The notes under the pieces were generated by a model. It ran no database searches. It had not been told where the DNA came from and worked only from the letters and a program-made list of their open reading frames with translations. A DNA stretch of 49,320 nt from a virus: the IMG/VR virus record IMGVR_UViG_3300030430_003611, positions 1 through 49,320 of that record; one strand, 5' to 3'. This document shows, piece by piece, positions 18,558 through 26,473 of the stretch (position 1 is the stretch's first letter; the number at the start of each line of letters is the position of its first letter). The position numbers and the translations under genes were made by a program.

Positions 18558-19396
18558 TGGCTTCTATCCGCAAAAAGCTCGCGGTGAACGCGAATAATTC
18601 TAAAAACACTCGCATGGATATTGCGGGTGCTGGTACGCTGGCCAACTGGCGACCAGATGAGTTGGCTCATATCAGTCGGTTTTGTAAAATGGGCCAGCTC
18701 ATTATGGGAAAAGCTAAAGAATTAGGCAGACCTGTTGATATTCTTGAGATCGGGTGTGGTGAAGTTTGGACACTTCGTTATCTCTATAAGGCTTTTGTTA
18801 CCAAAAAAGAAACCATCGTTAACAGTTATACCGGCATGGATATTGACCCTGCGTGTTTGGTCGACTGGTGGGTTGATGATAACCTTGAGGTCACAGAACA
18901 TAAGTGGTTTCAAACCATGACCGGTAACAAAGGTCGGATCGTTCTTCAAGACCTAACTGTAGACCCTGAACCTCCTGTTGAAGATGAGTCTATGGATGTC
19001 TTCATGACTACGGAAGTAATCGAACATATGGGGAGAAAGTTCATTGAACCTTGGATCGAAGCATCGTGGCGTAAACTTCGTCCGAATGGCATTGCATATG
19101 TCTCGACGCCGAACCATGATGGGTCAAACGACGTCCTCCCAAAAGACCATGTCTACGAGTGGGGGTACGAAGAACTCAAAGAACTCCTCGAAAAATACTA
19201 CACCATCGAACGGCACTACGGCACGTTTACGCAAATGAATAATTTCAAGCGTAACCACCGTGCTAATTTACGTTGGCCTCAACATGTAATCGACGATATT
19301 CAAGGGCGGTTCGATAAGCACTGGCAACGTGTAATTCTTGCCACGGCGTACCCAGAGACAGCTAATAATGTCAACTGGATCTTGAGGAAAAAATAA
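18557..19396 (+). CDS. SAM-dependent methyltransferase-fold protein
   Basis: A 279-residue class I methyltransferase-like protein. Motif I is DILEIGCGE (residues about 61-69); an acidic residue after GMDIDPACL would bind the ribose; DVFMTTEVIEHM and RPNGIAYVSTPNHDG are the post-I and motif V/VI-type segments seen in Methyltransf_11/23-like enzymes. It is not a typical DPPY or cytosine-C5 DNA methylase. Its overlap with the hypermodification-type gene suggests it may act on a modified base or nucleotide, but the substrate is unknown. Confidence 0.75.
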   Translation: MASIRKKLAVNANNSKNTRMDIAGAGTLANWRPDELAHISRFCKMGQLIMGKAKELGRPVDILEIGCGEVWTLRYLYKAFVTKKETIVNSYTGMDIDPACLVDWWVDDNLEVTEHKWFQTMTGNKGRIVLQDLTVDPEPPVEDESMDVFMTTEVIEHMGRKFIEPWIEASWRKLRPNGIAYVSTPNHDGSNDVLPKDHVYEWGYEELKELLEKYYTIERHYGTFTQMNNFKRNHRANLRWPQHVIDDIQGRFDKHWQRVILATAYPETANNVNWILRKK

Positions 19397-20223
19397 TGGA
19401 ACCGATTGAACGGTTCTTTTGGTGGATGGAGGAGAGGCACCGTATCTTTCTCAAGAAGGATATGGGCCTCTCCCGCAACCATTGGACTGACGACGAGATT
19501 TTAAAGACGTATCGCTTTACTAATCCCTTTAGAGAGAACGACAAGACAACCGTTTGGTTTAGGGAAAAGATGCGTAATCCTTTGAACGGCGACGACGCTG
19601 TTCTTATGGCTACAGTCATCTTCCGCTGGTTCAATCTTATTGAAACAGGGGAAACCCTTCTTGCTAATAATCTCCACGTCGAATGGAACCCAGAGATTGC
19701 GCGAGAAGAAATCAAGAAGCAACCTAAATATGTGACCGGCGGGTACATAATTAAAACTCCTGACGGGATGGATAAAGTTGATGGGGTGATTTGGTGCATA
19801 AACCGTGTCTGGCCCCAACGTGAACAACTCGCCAACGATATCCGCTCGAACAACCTCCGAGGTTCTTGGAATACTGTTATGCAATTTCCGTACCTAGGCG
19901 CATTCATGGCATACGAATTAATTACTGACTTGCGTCATACACATTTTTTAAACGGGGCTGACGATATCTACACGTGGGCTAATGCTGGTCCCGGTGCGAT
20001 GCGGGGACTTAATCGCATACACGGTAGACCCCTGAACTTTAAGAGCCGTAAGCATAACTTTACGAAGGAGATGCACGAACTTTTACTATGCTCATCCGAA
20101 TATTTAGCTAAAGATTTCCTACCACGATTAGAGATGCGCGACATCGAGCATAGTCTTTGCGAGTTTGATAAATACGAAAGAGTGCGTAACGGCGAAGGCG
20201 CACCCAGAGGAAAGTACCCATGA
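19396..20223 (+). CDS. DNA base hypermodification-type protein (HMUDK-helical / aGPT-PPlase-like)
   Basis: A 275-residue protein. The N-terminal segment WTDDEILKTYRFTNPFREND (about 30-49) matches the signature of the family annotated as 5-hmdU DNA kinase helical domain or putative DNA base hypermodification protein, related to the alpha-glutamyl/putrescinyl-thymine pyrophosphorylase group. These accompany thymidine hypermodification in phages. No Walker A P-loop is visible, so it is not by itself a P-loop 5-hmdU kinase. It is translationally coupled (ATGA) to the thymidylate-synthase-fold gene, the expected partner that would make the modified dUMP. The family match is from memory of motifs, not a search. 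Confidence 0.65.
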   Translation: MEPIERFFWWMEERHRIFLKKDMGLSRNHWTDDEILKTYRFTNPFRENDKTTVWFREKMRNPLNGDDAVLMATVIFRWFNLIETGETLLANNLHVEWNPEIAREEIKKQPKYVTGGYIIKTPDGMDKVDGVIWCINRVWPQREQLANDIRSNNLRGSWNTVMQFPYLGAFMAYELITDLRHTHFLNGADDIYTWANAGPGAMRGLNRIHGRPLNFKSRKHNFTKEMHELLLCSSEYLAKDFLPRLEMRDIEHSLCEFDKYERVRNGEGAPRGKYP

Positions 20224-21212
20224 AAGTTATACAGGGCGTAAACGTCAATGAAGTTTTTCAAATTGCAGTTATGAACTTGCGAGAGAGCAGTCAACTGTTA
20301 GAAACAGACTCGCGTAATGGTCCAGTACTATCGTTCCCGACGCCCCTTACGACTGTTTATGAGCGGCCTGATGAGCGCGTTCTATTTAGCGCTGAACGTA
20401 ATTGTAATCCCTTTTTCCATTTTATCGAAGGGCTGTGGATGATAGCAGGTCGGCAAGACCTAAACACGTTAACGATGTTCGCTAAGAAGATGGCGGACTT
20501 TTCGGATGACGGTATTCTTGTAAACGGTGCGTATGGTTATCGTTGGACTGAATGGTTTGGACGTGACCAGTTATCTACTGTTATCGACTTACTGCGTAAA
20601 AATCCATTAGACCGACGCGCCGTACTTCAGATGTGGGATTGCACTCAAGACCTTGGTTCATCATCCAAGGACGTTCCGTGTAATACGCAAATTTTCTTGC
20701 GGGGCCGACCAGCTAGACTCGGTTATTATTTAGATATGACTGTAACGAACAGATCGAATGATTTGATCTGGGGCATGTATGGTGCGAACGCTGTTCACTT
20801 TAGTATGGTTCATGAGTATTTAGCCAGTTGCATAGGGATGGGACTTGGGCATTATTATCAAGTTAGTAGTAATCCGCATGTATATTTAGATGTATGGAGG
20901 CCACTTGATGAAAAACTTCCTCACGGGATTTATCCAGACCCTTATGAAGCGTATGGGGTTTATCCAGTTCCACTCGTCGATAAATGGGAAGAGTTCGACG
21001 TTGAAGTCTGCCTCTTCTTCGATTGGCTCCACCGTGGGGAGTCCCATGTGGGATATCAAAACCAGATCTTTCCGAAGACTGCAATACCTATGGTCGAAGC
21101 TTGGTGGCTCTGGAAAGAAAAAATGATAAACGAGGCTGTTGATAAAGCCCGTGAAATAGAATCACCTGATTGGAGGAAAGCCTGTGTCGAATGGCTCGAA
21201 AGAAAAAAGTAA
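20220..21212 (+). CDS. Thymidylate synthase-fold enzyme, possible dUMP hydroxymethylase
   Basis: A 330-residue protein of the thymidylate synthase fold. Visible elements: FIEGLWMIAGRQD (E-x-L-W-F/M), GAYGYRW, the catalytic Cys154 in DVPCNTQ, and TNRSNDLIWGMYGANAVHFS with Arg, Ser, Asp and the Asn that selects uracil over cytosine. The residue after the catalytic Cys is Asn instead of the His of canonical ThyA. The Asn in GAN favours dUMP as substrate. Either methylation to dTMP or hydroxymethylation to 5-hmdUMP is possible; the coupled hypermodification-type gene upstream favours the latter. The C-terminus holds the GTG start of the next gene. Confidence 0.8.
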   Translation: MKVIQGVNVNEVFQIAVMNLRESSQLLETDSRNGPVLSFPTPLTTVYERPDERVLFSAERNCNPFFHFIEGLWMIAGRQDLNTLTMFAKKMADFSDDGILVNGAYGYRWTEWFGRDQLSTVIDLLRKNPLDRRAVLQMWDCTQDLGSSSKDVPCNTQIFLRGRPARLGYYLDMTVTNRSNDLIWGMYGANAVHFSMVHEYLASCIGMGLGHYYQVSSNPHVYLDVWRPLDEKLPHGIYPDPYEAYGVYPVPLVDKWEEFDVEVCLFFDWLHRGESHVGYQNQIFPKTAIPMVEAWWLWKEKMINEAVDKAREIESPDWRKACVEWLERKK

Positions 21213-24398: not shown

Positions 24399-24803
24399 AT
24401 GGGCCGACTGAAACAAATGATGATGGATCCGAAGCCAATGTCTCAGGAGCTTATCATTGAGACATTCGTTAAATACCCTTTGATTGGATTTGGCGAGGCA
24501 TCGTTCTCTGACCTAGAGTCGTATCTCGGCCACCCCGATATCCACCCTGACCATTTCCCTAACGGTTTAGGTATCTCAGCCGGTGGAACATGGAAGCCAG
24601 ATAGCACTTGGGATCTTCGTTGCGCTTGGGGCTTTATCTGGGACGATGGTGAGCGGGTCGTTCTCCACGACCGTAATAGTCAGGTTAAGGAGCTTGAAGA
24701 CTTAAAGTACTGGCATATCACTGGGTCACGTGCAGCGTGGTATTTATTGACAGAGGGCTATCTTTTTGATCCGATATCTGTCAGCCTTGAAAAGGCGAAG
24801 TAA
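24399..24803 (+). CDS. Hypothetical protein
   Basis: A 134-residue protein. The start is set at the ATG at 24399 because it follows the AAAAGGAGAAAG site shared by many genes of this region; in-frame ATGs further upstream lie across the hairpin. It contains ELIIETFVKYPLIGFGEASF and a Trp-rich segment (GGTWKPDSTWDLRCAWGFIW), suggesting a compact alpha/beta domain. No family recognised. The stop codon is the loop of a GCGAAG-TAA-CTTCGC hairpin. Confidence 0.65.
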   Translation: MGRLKQMMMDPKPMSQELIIETFVKYPLIGFGEASFSDLESYLGHPDIHPDHFPNGLGISAGGTWKPDSTWDLRCAWGFIWDDGERVVLHDRNSQVKELEDLKYWHITGSRAAWYLLTEGYLFDPISVSLEKAK

Positions 24804-24852
24804 CTTCGCTTTTCCTCCCCAAACTAAGGCGGCTCTCGGGCCGCCTCTTTTT
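24795..24852 (+). terminator. Tandem terminators
   Basis: First hairpin GCGAAG-TAA-CTTCGC followed by TTTT (24795-24813), whose loop is the stop codon. Second hairpin AGGCGGC/GCCGCCT followed by CTTTTT (24827-24852). Together they close the first accessory transcription unit. Confidence 0.8.
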
Positions 24853-24869
24853 CCTCATAAAATAGTTTA

Positions 24870-24917
24870 TTTTGTTACTAAACTTCTTTAGCTTGATCGT
24901 TTACTATATTAATAGTT
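24870..24917 (+). promoter_or_regulatory. Promoter cassette copy 2
   Basis: TTTTG at 24870 and a near-palindrome ACTATATTAATAGT at 24903-24916, ahead of a GGGAGAAAG ribosome site for the gene at 24966. The spacing (34) is longer than the 30 bases of most copies, so this is a weaker match. Confidence 0.55.
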
Positions 24918-24965: not shown

Positions 24966-25517
24966 ATGACAAATATTGAGAGCCATAAGTCGGTGGCTGT
25001 TGAGATTCCGACTTACCGCGTCCTTAGGGCGATCGCAGAGAAAGAGTTCCGTACTCCTTCAAAGCAGATTGCTTTTCTTCTCGCTCAGAATTATCCCGAC
25101 GTTTGGGAAGAGTTCGCTGAGCTGGAGGCGCTTCCTGCTCCGGTTGCTAGTCAGGACGGCACGATAGTTCCGTTTCTTCATGACCGGGTCTCTAACGACC
25201 AGCGTTCGATGTATCGTACTTGGCAGGTTTTGATTTGCCTGTACCGTAATCGGTCGCTTGGGTTCTTGCGTACTTCTCAGTTGGCTTCGGCTATTGGGTA
25301 TATGCACGATAATTCGTTATCATCGGTACTTAGTCGTCCGCGTGATATTGGGTTGATTACTTCGCGTCCGATCTCTGCTGGGTCTCGTGACCTTGAGTGG
25401 TCTCTTACTGACTTCGGTAGGTATGTGTCGAAAGACCTTGATGATACCGTGCCTGTTAGGCTTACTCAGGTAATCCTCGACCAGTACCAGCGCGACTTTA
25501 TGAGGGCTGCGTCATGA
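24966..25517 (+). CDS. Putative DNA-binding regulator (RHH-like plus winged helix)
   Basis: A 183-residue protein. Residues about 8-40 (VAVEIPTYRVLRAIAEKEFR) resemble a ribbon-helix-helix strand and helix. Residues about 85-160 (TWQVLICLYRNRS, FLRTSQLASAIGYM, SLSSVLSRPRDIGLITSRPI) look like a MarR-type winged helix with wing strands. It stands behind its own promoter cassette in the accessory region. It is a candidate regulator of phage early or middle genes; the target is not shown. Confidence 0.6.
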   Translation: MTNIESHKSVAVEIPTYRVLRAIAEKEFRTPSKQIAFLLAQNYPDVWEEFAELEALPAPVASQDGTIVPFLHDRVSNDQRSMYRTWQVLICLYRNRSLGFLRTSQLASAIGYMHDNSLSSVLSRPRDIGLITSRPISAGSRDLEWSLTDFGRYVSKDLDDTVPVRLTQVILDQYQRDFMRAAS

Positions 25518-25783
25518 ATAAATCCCACGGTTCACCATATGACCGTGGCTCTGCCGACCGTTATTACGGTCGGCAGTTTGCACCACATTATTATAGAGAT
25601 GGTGGTCATGTGCGCGTTGAGATAGATTTGATGACTGCAGAAGAGATATTCGATTACAAAGTTGGCTGGAATGGCTGTCTTTGTCGAAAAGATTGGGGCG
25701 GCGGTATATACGCTCCAGAACAAAGTGATGTACCATTGATGGACATCCGTGATTTTAGGGATAAGGGGGGCGCAGACACATAG
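25514..25783 (+). CDS. Small conserved phage protein with GSADRYYGR motif
   Basis: An 89-residue protein overlapping the regulator by an ATGA junction. The N-terminus HGSPYDRGSADRYYGRQFAP followed by HYY is a recurrent motif in small phage and prophage proteins whose function is unknown. The middle (MTAEEIFDYKVGWNGC) fits the usual helix of this family. Translation is probably coupled to the regulator. Confidence 0.7.
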   Translation: MNKSHGSPYDRGSADRYYGRQFAPHYYRDGGHVRVEIDLMTAEEIFDYKVGWNGCLCRKDWGGGIYAPEQSDVPLMDIRDFRDKGGADT

Positions 25784-26161
25784 CACCTTTCCGTGGGCGG
25801 GGTGCCAAAGGTTCGACCTCGTCCCAGCTGAGTAAACACCACTGATGTTTTTTGGGGCGTCAGTAAAAGATGATAGCGGTGGAAACTGTGACTACCTTTG
25901 CTTCCTACCTCTGTACGCTAACCTCGAAACTACGAAAGTAGCCCTTCGAGACAGAGGCCGCGAAAGGTAGACGGTACTCGTAAGAGCCGTGGAGACGCCA
26001 ATGTCATCCGGTTAAGACGAAGTGAGATACAAGGCCGTGGCTTTCGGTCTATCTTCTCCCCCGAGGGGTCGATTTTACGTTTGGGTCGATCCTGTGATTT
26101 TGGGAGATAGCGCTGAATAAAAGATGGGTCTGCCTTAATACATGCACCATCAAAGCCACGG
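25783..26161 (+). ncRNA. Putative large structured non-coding RNA
   Basis: There is no credible gene in 25784-26251. The segment has nested complementarity. CTACCTTT (25892-25899) pairs with AAAGGTAG (25963-25970); inside it CCTCTGT (25908-25914) with ACAGAGG (25951-25957); inside that CTCGAA/TTCGAG (25923-25928, 25945-25950) encloses CTAC-GAAA-GTAG. Next to it, ACGG-TA-CTC-GTAA-GAG-CCGT forms a second GNRA-looped hairpin (25971-25990). CCGTGGCTTT (26035-26044) pairs with AAAGCCACGG (26152-26161), enclosing CTATCT/AGATAG. GGTGC (25801-25805) can close with GCACC at 25783 or 26144. I recognise no known RNA class. Strand is assumed from the genes around it. Confidence 0.55.
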
Positions 26162-26184
26162 AACACCTTCCATTATTTTGTTTA

Positions 26185-26234
26185 TTTTGAGATATTTTTC
26201 CTTTTTATGGTCGTCTATACTAATATAGTAAGAA
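26185..26234 (+). promoter_or_regulatory. Promoter cassette copy 3
   Basis: TTTTGAGATATTTTTC at 26185-26200, then 14 bases, then CTATACTAATATAGTAAGAA at 26215-26234 (TTTTG to CTATA distance 30). The 20-base palindromic block is identical to the one at 27466. It is followed by AAAAGGAGAAAGAA and the ATG at 26252. Confidence 0.75.
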
Positions 26235-26251
26235 TGTAAAAGGAGAAAGAA

Positions 26252-26473
26252 ATGAATTCCACTTTCACACCAAAGCCATCCATCGGTTACCTTGCTGTTT
26301 ATGAAGAAGGTACGCCTATCGAAATGGTCCACCTCAGCCATAAAGACGAAATCTCTGATATGCGTCAGCATCTTGAAGAGTTGTACCGCGTTGAAGAGCG
26401 GGGTCGTACCGTCGAATGGCACGATCTTGAAGAAGGCCGCGAGGTCTTCATTTATTCGAAGAGGGCGTCATGA
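26252..26473 (+). CDS. Small hypothetical protein
   Basis: A 73-residue protein with a perfect AAAGGAGAAAGAA ribosome site and promoter cassette. It has a beta-alpha-beta pattern (IGYLAVYEEGTPIEMVHLSH, DMRQHLEELYRVEERG, REVFIYSKRAS), like other short accessory proteins here (26470, 28758, 31167). Function is unknown; an early, host-directed role is plausible. Confidence 0.7.
   Translation: MNSTFTPKPSIGYLAVYEEGTPIEMVHLSHKDEISDMRQHLEELYRVEERGRTVEWHDLEEGREVFIYSKRAS

Follow-up and report, generated by a model that had tools for sequence, protein, structure and literature searches.

A structured RNA with two predicted pseudoknots, absent from Rfam, in related uncultivated tailed phages

In the window, a 49,320-bp IMG/VR viral contig analyzed here at its full length, a predicted structured RNA of 403 nt occupies positions 25765-26167 of the plus strand, the strand of all its helices and joints, of the upstream gene and of the downstream spacer. 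It extends from a run of G residues at its 5' end to a conserved GAACACC and is represented by 11 sequences and two covariance models, R1 and R2. Upstream lies a gene for an 89-aa protein (25514-25783), whose final codons overlap the RNA 5' end and whose homologues occur both on several hundred viral contigs and in the named viruses Roseobacter phage CRP-901 and Dunaliella viridis virus SI2; downstream, a promoter-like spacer (26171-26251) with ACTAATATAGTAAGA at 26219 leads to the next gene (26252-26473). A sequence-only reading of this DNA had taken 25514-26252 to be gene-free and had let a segment of RNA-like complementarity begin at 25783. The absence of genes holds for 25784-26251 but not for 25514-25783, where the 89-aa gene lies, and the structured RNA is indeed present but with a 5' limit at ~25765, within that gene, and a 3' limit at ~26167. 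The start of the 89-aa gene (25525-25576) carries two perfect inverted repeats, CCACGGT/ACCGTGG and CTGCCGACCGT/ACGGTCGGCAG, and similar repeats, encoding HGSPYDRGSADRYYGR, are visible in its homologues.

The window phage is of a tailed, aquatic kind. Its gene products include a DNA polymerase, a terminase, a portal protein, a Mu gpT-like capsid protein, a 5-hmdU DNA kinase, and a thymidylate-synthase-like protein, and the nearest relatives of its terminase, at 56-62% identity, are found in DSL-LC04, 023Pt_psg01, and the Pelagibacter phages HTVC023P and HTVC027P. The kinase gene (PF18723) adjoins the thymidylate-synthase-like gene at 19396-21212, a neighborhood that suggests hypermodified phage DNA. 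Immediately 3' of the capsid gene is a Mu-gpT-DE RNA (RF03012; 43757-43802). A stretch at 24788-24860 resembles the suhB/mmgR sRNA (RF00519) at 24 bits, under the gathering score of 41, with a terminator at 24827-24846 as its 3' end, and sub-threshold matches to the same model recur in two homologous loci, at L015:3827-3895 and L123:6925-6992. The suhB/mmgR family is alphaproteobacterial, and the match is a possible hint to the host group.

The RNA family comprises 11 distinct sequences of 165-403 nt in at least 13 contigs, a count that includes the near-copies L041, L124, and L121 and the near-identical contig L002/L005. The syntenic contig L003 was reached through the 89-aa gene; its 310-nt gap holds ATACAAGGC, TGCCTTAA, and GAACACC together with complementary stem changes, and searches with DNA patterns and neighboring genes added L009, L015, L017, and L039/L041. 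When R1, which models the 3' core, was run on 80 loci carrying the 89-aa gene, five more distinct members came to light, L123 at 83 bits and L117, L136, L067, and L076 at 30-39 bits; the pseudoknot 5' strands, which lie outside R1, were afterwards located at the expected place in these distant members. The homologue sequences are metagenomic, and E-values of home-made covariance models such as these are rough. BLASTN searches of INPHARED (50,697 phages) with several members returned no homologue, the models being run on eight of its records. Weak model matches in HTVC027P, DSL-LC04, and G028 were rejected as chance because they lie inside protein genes, as were DNA pattern matches in bacterial genomes (L044-L055) and in L010, L011, and L042, which come without the other motifs. 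The RNA is present in G005 and G006, whose DNA polymerases are 51-55% identical to that of the window, yet missing from G001 and G002, at ~90% identity; it is thus old in the phage group and can be lost, and its absence from such close relatives indicates that it is dispensable.

Folded as a single sequence, the segment reaches -138.6 kcal/mol (z = -2.5), with one of 100 shuffles equally good, a value just moderately better than shuffles that proves nothing by itself, so that the weight rests on comparison. The stems proposed in the sequence-only reading are present, and covariation in the family alignment is strong. Central helix Pa (26035-26042 with 26154-26161) is 100% paired in the 11 sequences, with five of its eight pairs changing on both sides, and constitutes the first 8 bp of the long-range stem of that reading, a perfect 10-bp match between CCGUGGCUUU (26035-26044) and AAAGCCACGG (26152-26161). 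Hairpin Pb (26043-26117; stem 26049-26053/26106-26110) varies in its stem while keeping the pairing (CUAUC/GAUAG, ACACUG/CAGUGU, CAUCCUG/CAGGAUG, UUGCACCC/GGGUGCAA); its loop CCCCC (26058-26062) supplies the 3' strand of helix G, and 26066-26092 within it is a hairpin insertion particular to the window phage. Hairpin Pc (26123-26151; stem 26123-26127/26147-26151) is 92.7% paired, all five pairs changing on both sides, and its loop contains GUCUGC (26128-26133), the 3' strand of helix A, along with a conserved CUUAA..CAUG. The joints are conserved as well: the segment UACAAGG (26028-26034), immediately 5' of Pa, has a CAA invariant in 11 of 11 sequences, followed in distant members by a varying base and then G, and the 3' joint GGAACACC (26160-26167) reads GAA and then Y/R positions in all homologues.

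Across the 11-sequence alignment, 97.2% of the cells of Pa and Pc are paired versus 74.1% after shuffling, none of 500 shuffles being as high; both bases vary in 10 of the 13 pairs, and a one-column shift of the partner lowers pairing to ~32-36%. As this alignment had been fitted to the structure, ungapped helix blocks placed beside conserved words were counted too, giving 88 of 88 pairs for Pa (at most 32 when slid) and 51 of 55 for Pc (at most 29). Two other pairings were discarded: a terminal AAGG/CCUU stem joining both ends (helix T), in which covariation is absent, and a match between AAGG at 26031-26034 and the CCUU of the Pc loop, which distant members do not keep.

How is the 5' end held to this 3' domain? 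Comparison shows two neighboring predicted pseudoknots that would tie them together, the 5' strand GGGGGG-GCAGAC bridging the loops of the adjacent hairpins Pb and Pc, which would sit side by side inside Pa. In helix A (pseudoknot 1), GCAGAC at 25772-25777 pairs with 26128-26133, and 66 of 66 positions are paired across the family, against at most 29 of 66 for slid partners and with none of 2000 shuffles as good; the pairs read GCAGAC/GUCUGC in the window, GCAAAC/GUUUGC in L015, AGCGGU/ACCGCU in L067, GGUGGC/GCCGCC in L136, and GGCAAC/GUUGCC in L003, with one base missing there from each strand. In helix G (pseudoknot 2), the G-run at 25765-25770 pairs with 26058-26062 (54 of 55, slid partners at most 41 of 55, none of 5000 shuffles as good), the 3' blocks having been picked by complementarity, which leaves its support weaker than that of helix A. 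Its pairs across homologues include GGGGG/CCCCC, GAGGG/CCCUC, AGGGG/CCCCU, and GCGGG/CCCGC, and what speaks for it most is the change on both strands from GAGGG/CCCUC to AGGGG/CCCCU.

Lengths run from ~165 nt in L117, the shortest member, to 403 nt in the window, and the spread falls mostly between the pseudoknot strand and UACAAGG. In comparison, this 5'-side domain (P8, P9, P10-P12) is nearly absent in some members, reaches ~200 nt in others, and is dispensable for the core. Its helices nonetheless vary in a compensated manner, with two-sided changes in P8, P9, P10, P11, P12, and a GAAA hairpin among the window, L009, L015, and L003. After helix A comes a conserved pyrimidine element, CACCUUUC (25784-25791), which is CUCCUUUC or ACCUCCUUUC in other members; CCTTTC is invariant in the seven longer homologues, and compact members have a CCUCC-type element. 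The CUCCUUUC/ACCUCCUUUC forms resemble the 3' end of 16S rRNA (anti-Shine-Dalgarno), a resemblance that is possibly chance. Hairpin P8 (25795-25825; stem 25798-25802/25817-25821) carries a T-loop-like GGUUCGACC and has the stem CGGGG/CCUCG in five sequences and GACGU/ACGUC in L003, and P9 (25841-25864) appears as ACUGAUG/CGUCAGU or ACCAUAG/CUAUGGU, each with seven of seven pairs. Arm P10 (25869-26008; 25869-25873/26004-26008 and 25878-25881/25996-25999), which encloses P11 and P12 and is shrunken or missing in short homologues, pairs as GAUGA/UCAUC versus GUUAG/AUAAC and as GGUG/CGCC, GGUG/CACC, or CUGUU/AGCAG. P11 (25892-25970; stem 25892-25897/25965-25970), CUACCU/AGGUAG versus UUGCC/GGUAA, contains the GAAA-tetraloop hairpin at 25930-25941, and the P12 hairpin (25971-25990) has a GUAA tetraloop at 25980-25983. 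Both tetraloop hairpins, of which the GUAA-capped one spans 25977-25986, had been seen before from the window by itself, and both recur in relatives with compensated stems and with the loops kept: CUAC-GAAA-GUAG in the window versus UCGC-GAAA-GCGA in L009, and CUC-GUAA-GAG versus UCU-GUAA-AGA in L015.

The family is absent from Rfam. Searched against Rfam 15, the segment yields nothing at the gathering score and nothing credible at E up to 10 in the window and L015, and the RNA of the further homologue loci matches no family at E up to 3. ARAGORN reported no tRNA or tmRNA gene in the window. A literature search found no earlier account of the RNA, and an unlisted prediction in bulk surveys of viral contigs may exist. 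The sequence-only reading, which had looked in vain for tmRNA and RNase P and had proposed a large phage non-coding RNA of an unrecognized kind, is supported by these results, by the covariation, and by the lack of a conserved reading frame, the last two being the checks that it had itself set.

The genomic setting of the RNA varies. In the window it closes a unit whose start is preceded by the strong terminator (24827-24846) and by a promoter-like stretch (near 24899). A motif around TTTACTATACTAATATAGTAAG is repeated at 26219, 27470, and 24899; nine promoter-like motifs occur in the window against 1.5 expected, and the one 3' of the RNA is kept in L009, L015, and L017. These repeats are probably the phage's own promoter set, and because a scan with the sigma-70 consensus is negative in the RNA region, the case for them comes from repetition and conservation only. 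The upstream neighbor is the 89-aa gene in the window, L009, L003, and L015, another gene in L039 and L123, and a zinc-ribbon gene in L117, L067, and L136, and downstream genes likewise differ among members, so that no one gene stays adjacent to the RNA on either side, a variability that speaks against a role in controlling any single gene. In L017, alone among the loci examined, a tRNA-Leu (TAA) gene (L017:4778-4866) separates the 89-aa gene from the RNA and ends ~11 nt upstream of the latter; processing of this tRNA would cut the RNA from the preceding mRNA. No window protein follows the RNA in being encoded by every contig that has it and by none that lacks it, several of these contigs being partial, and hence no protein partner is pointed to.

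We consider it fairly probable that 25765-26167 is a free-standing, trans-acting structured RNA of a non-Rfam family in related uncultivated tailed phages. The kept structure, the change of both neighbors, and the presence of a tRNA on one side in L017 and of a promoter-like motif on the other all favor such an RNA, and we infer a discrete transcript from the locus. Since no promoter was recognized directly 5' of it, the RNA must derive from a longer transcript: it would be transcribed together with the upstream genes, freed by RNA processing, and act in trans during infection, as a folded RNA or as an RNA-protein particle. Its working surface would be the conserved unpaired patches, namely the CAA before Pa, the YUUUAA/CUUAA..CAU in the Pc loop, and the GAAY after Pa. 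More speculatively, and with the chances somewhat against it, we suggest that these sequences might represent an undescribed class of trans-acting phage RNA with a fold of its own, a 5' strand bridging two hairpin loops, serving as a ribozyme or RNA machine in infection.

The alternative that deserves most attention, although we find it unlikely, is that of a cis-acting element of phage mRNA between transcription units, whether a pseudoknotted leader, an attenuator, a processing site, or a structure protecting a 3' end. The RNA sits between genes on the coding strand, the window copy ends its unit just 5' of a promoter-like motif, and L117 and L136 have a start codon within ~25-30 nt 3' of the RNA, all of which would suit such a role. 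Neither neighbor is conserved, however, in the window group the promoter-like motif intervenes between the RNA and the next gene, and the upstream tRNA of L017 would detach the RNA from the upstream mRNA. At the other extreme, the likelihood that we are dealing with a short protein-coding region or with chance complementarity is close to nil: antisense ORFs of 62-90 aa do overlap the segment, but among homologues no frame is both open and conserved along it and no single one runs across them, and chance is refuted by covariation far above shuffled and slid controls. Weak protein-level matches are scattered over several frames of both strands, a pattern that plain DNA similarity would give, and a short ORF starting from a GTG/ATG before TACAAGGC was set aside since its frame is lost among homologues.

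Two known catalytic RNAs have also to be weighed. A self-cleaving ribozyme, HDV-like or new, is favored by the nested pseudoknots, the G-rich 5' strand, and a helix order like that of HDV (A, Pa, Pb, A', Pa'); we judge it improbable, as the catalytic C expected in J4/2 is unconserved (the joint is AAA, and the preceding nucleotide is C, U, or G and paired in Pc), the pairing of the Pb loop falls upstream of helix A where that of P1.1 falls downstream, and there is no Rfam ribozyme match. A highly divergent RNase P RNA or derivative, for its part, is very improbable. Long members do share, by eye, co-linear strings with E. coli M1 RNA (GGGCRGGGUGCCARGGU, CAAGGCC, GCCU..AAU..AUG, GAAC.CC) and a cruciform-like 5' domain, the alignment of L009 to M1 RNA beats all 300 shuffles (121 vs 91 +/- 8), and in L017 a tRNA adjoins the RNA. 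But RF00010, positive in 11 of 14 control genomes, does not match the window at any E up to 10, R1 and R2 miss the E. coli rnpB locus, and other members align to M1 RNA at chance level or only weakly better. The universal P4 5' strand GAAAGUCC (partner ACAGAA) occurs in no member, the 3' end bears just a loose GAAC resemblance, and the compact members L117 and L067 lack the strings shared with M1 RNA. Having failed in model searches and in alignment to E. coli M1 RNA, this identity is largely refuted.

The free, trans-acting RNA that we favor would join a small company, as few structured RNAs are known from phages, and such examples as GOLLD and ROOL still lack a function. Its fold is unusual and well supported, and it is kept across phages whose DNA polymerases are only ~51-55% identical; the compact forms of ~165 nt are short enough for routine probing, crystallography, and cryo-EM, which makes a testable RNA available.

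Among named systems, type A bacterial RNase P RNA recalls the present RNA in some strings and in a cruciform-like domain, both by eye, and departs from it in its pseudoknot order and its P4 CR-I sequence, absent here along with any model match. HDV-like ribozymes share the nested pseudoknot and a 5' strand pairing between two inner hairpins, whereas this RNA lacks a conserved catalytic C and has its second pseudoknot on the opposite side of the first. The nearest known RNAs in kind are GOLLD and ROOL, and the window RNA matches neither. Both are included in Rfam: GOLLD is a phage and prophage RNA with a conserved 3' region and a less conserved 5' one, often found near tRNA genes, and ROOL is a phage RNA with several pseudoknots, often close to tRNA islands (PMC12286853). 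The conserved 3' and less conserved 5' regions of a phage RNA are a likeness to GOLLD, which is often >800 nt long versus 165-403 nt here and has another helix layout; the present RNA gave no Rfam match at E up to 10. A multimeric RNA-only cage is a feature of the GOLLD and ROOL class. With ROOL it shares multiple pseudoknots in a phage RNA; no Rfam match links the two, and what sets its core apart is the 5' strand that would bridge two hairpin loops.
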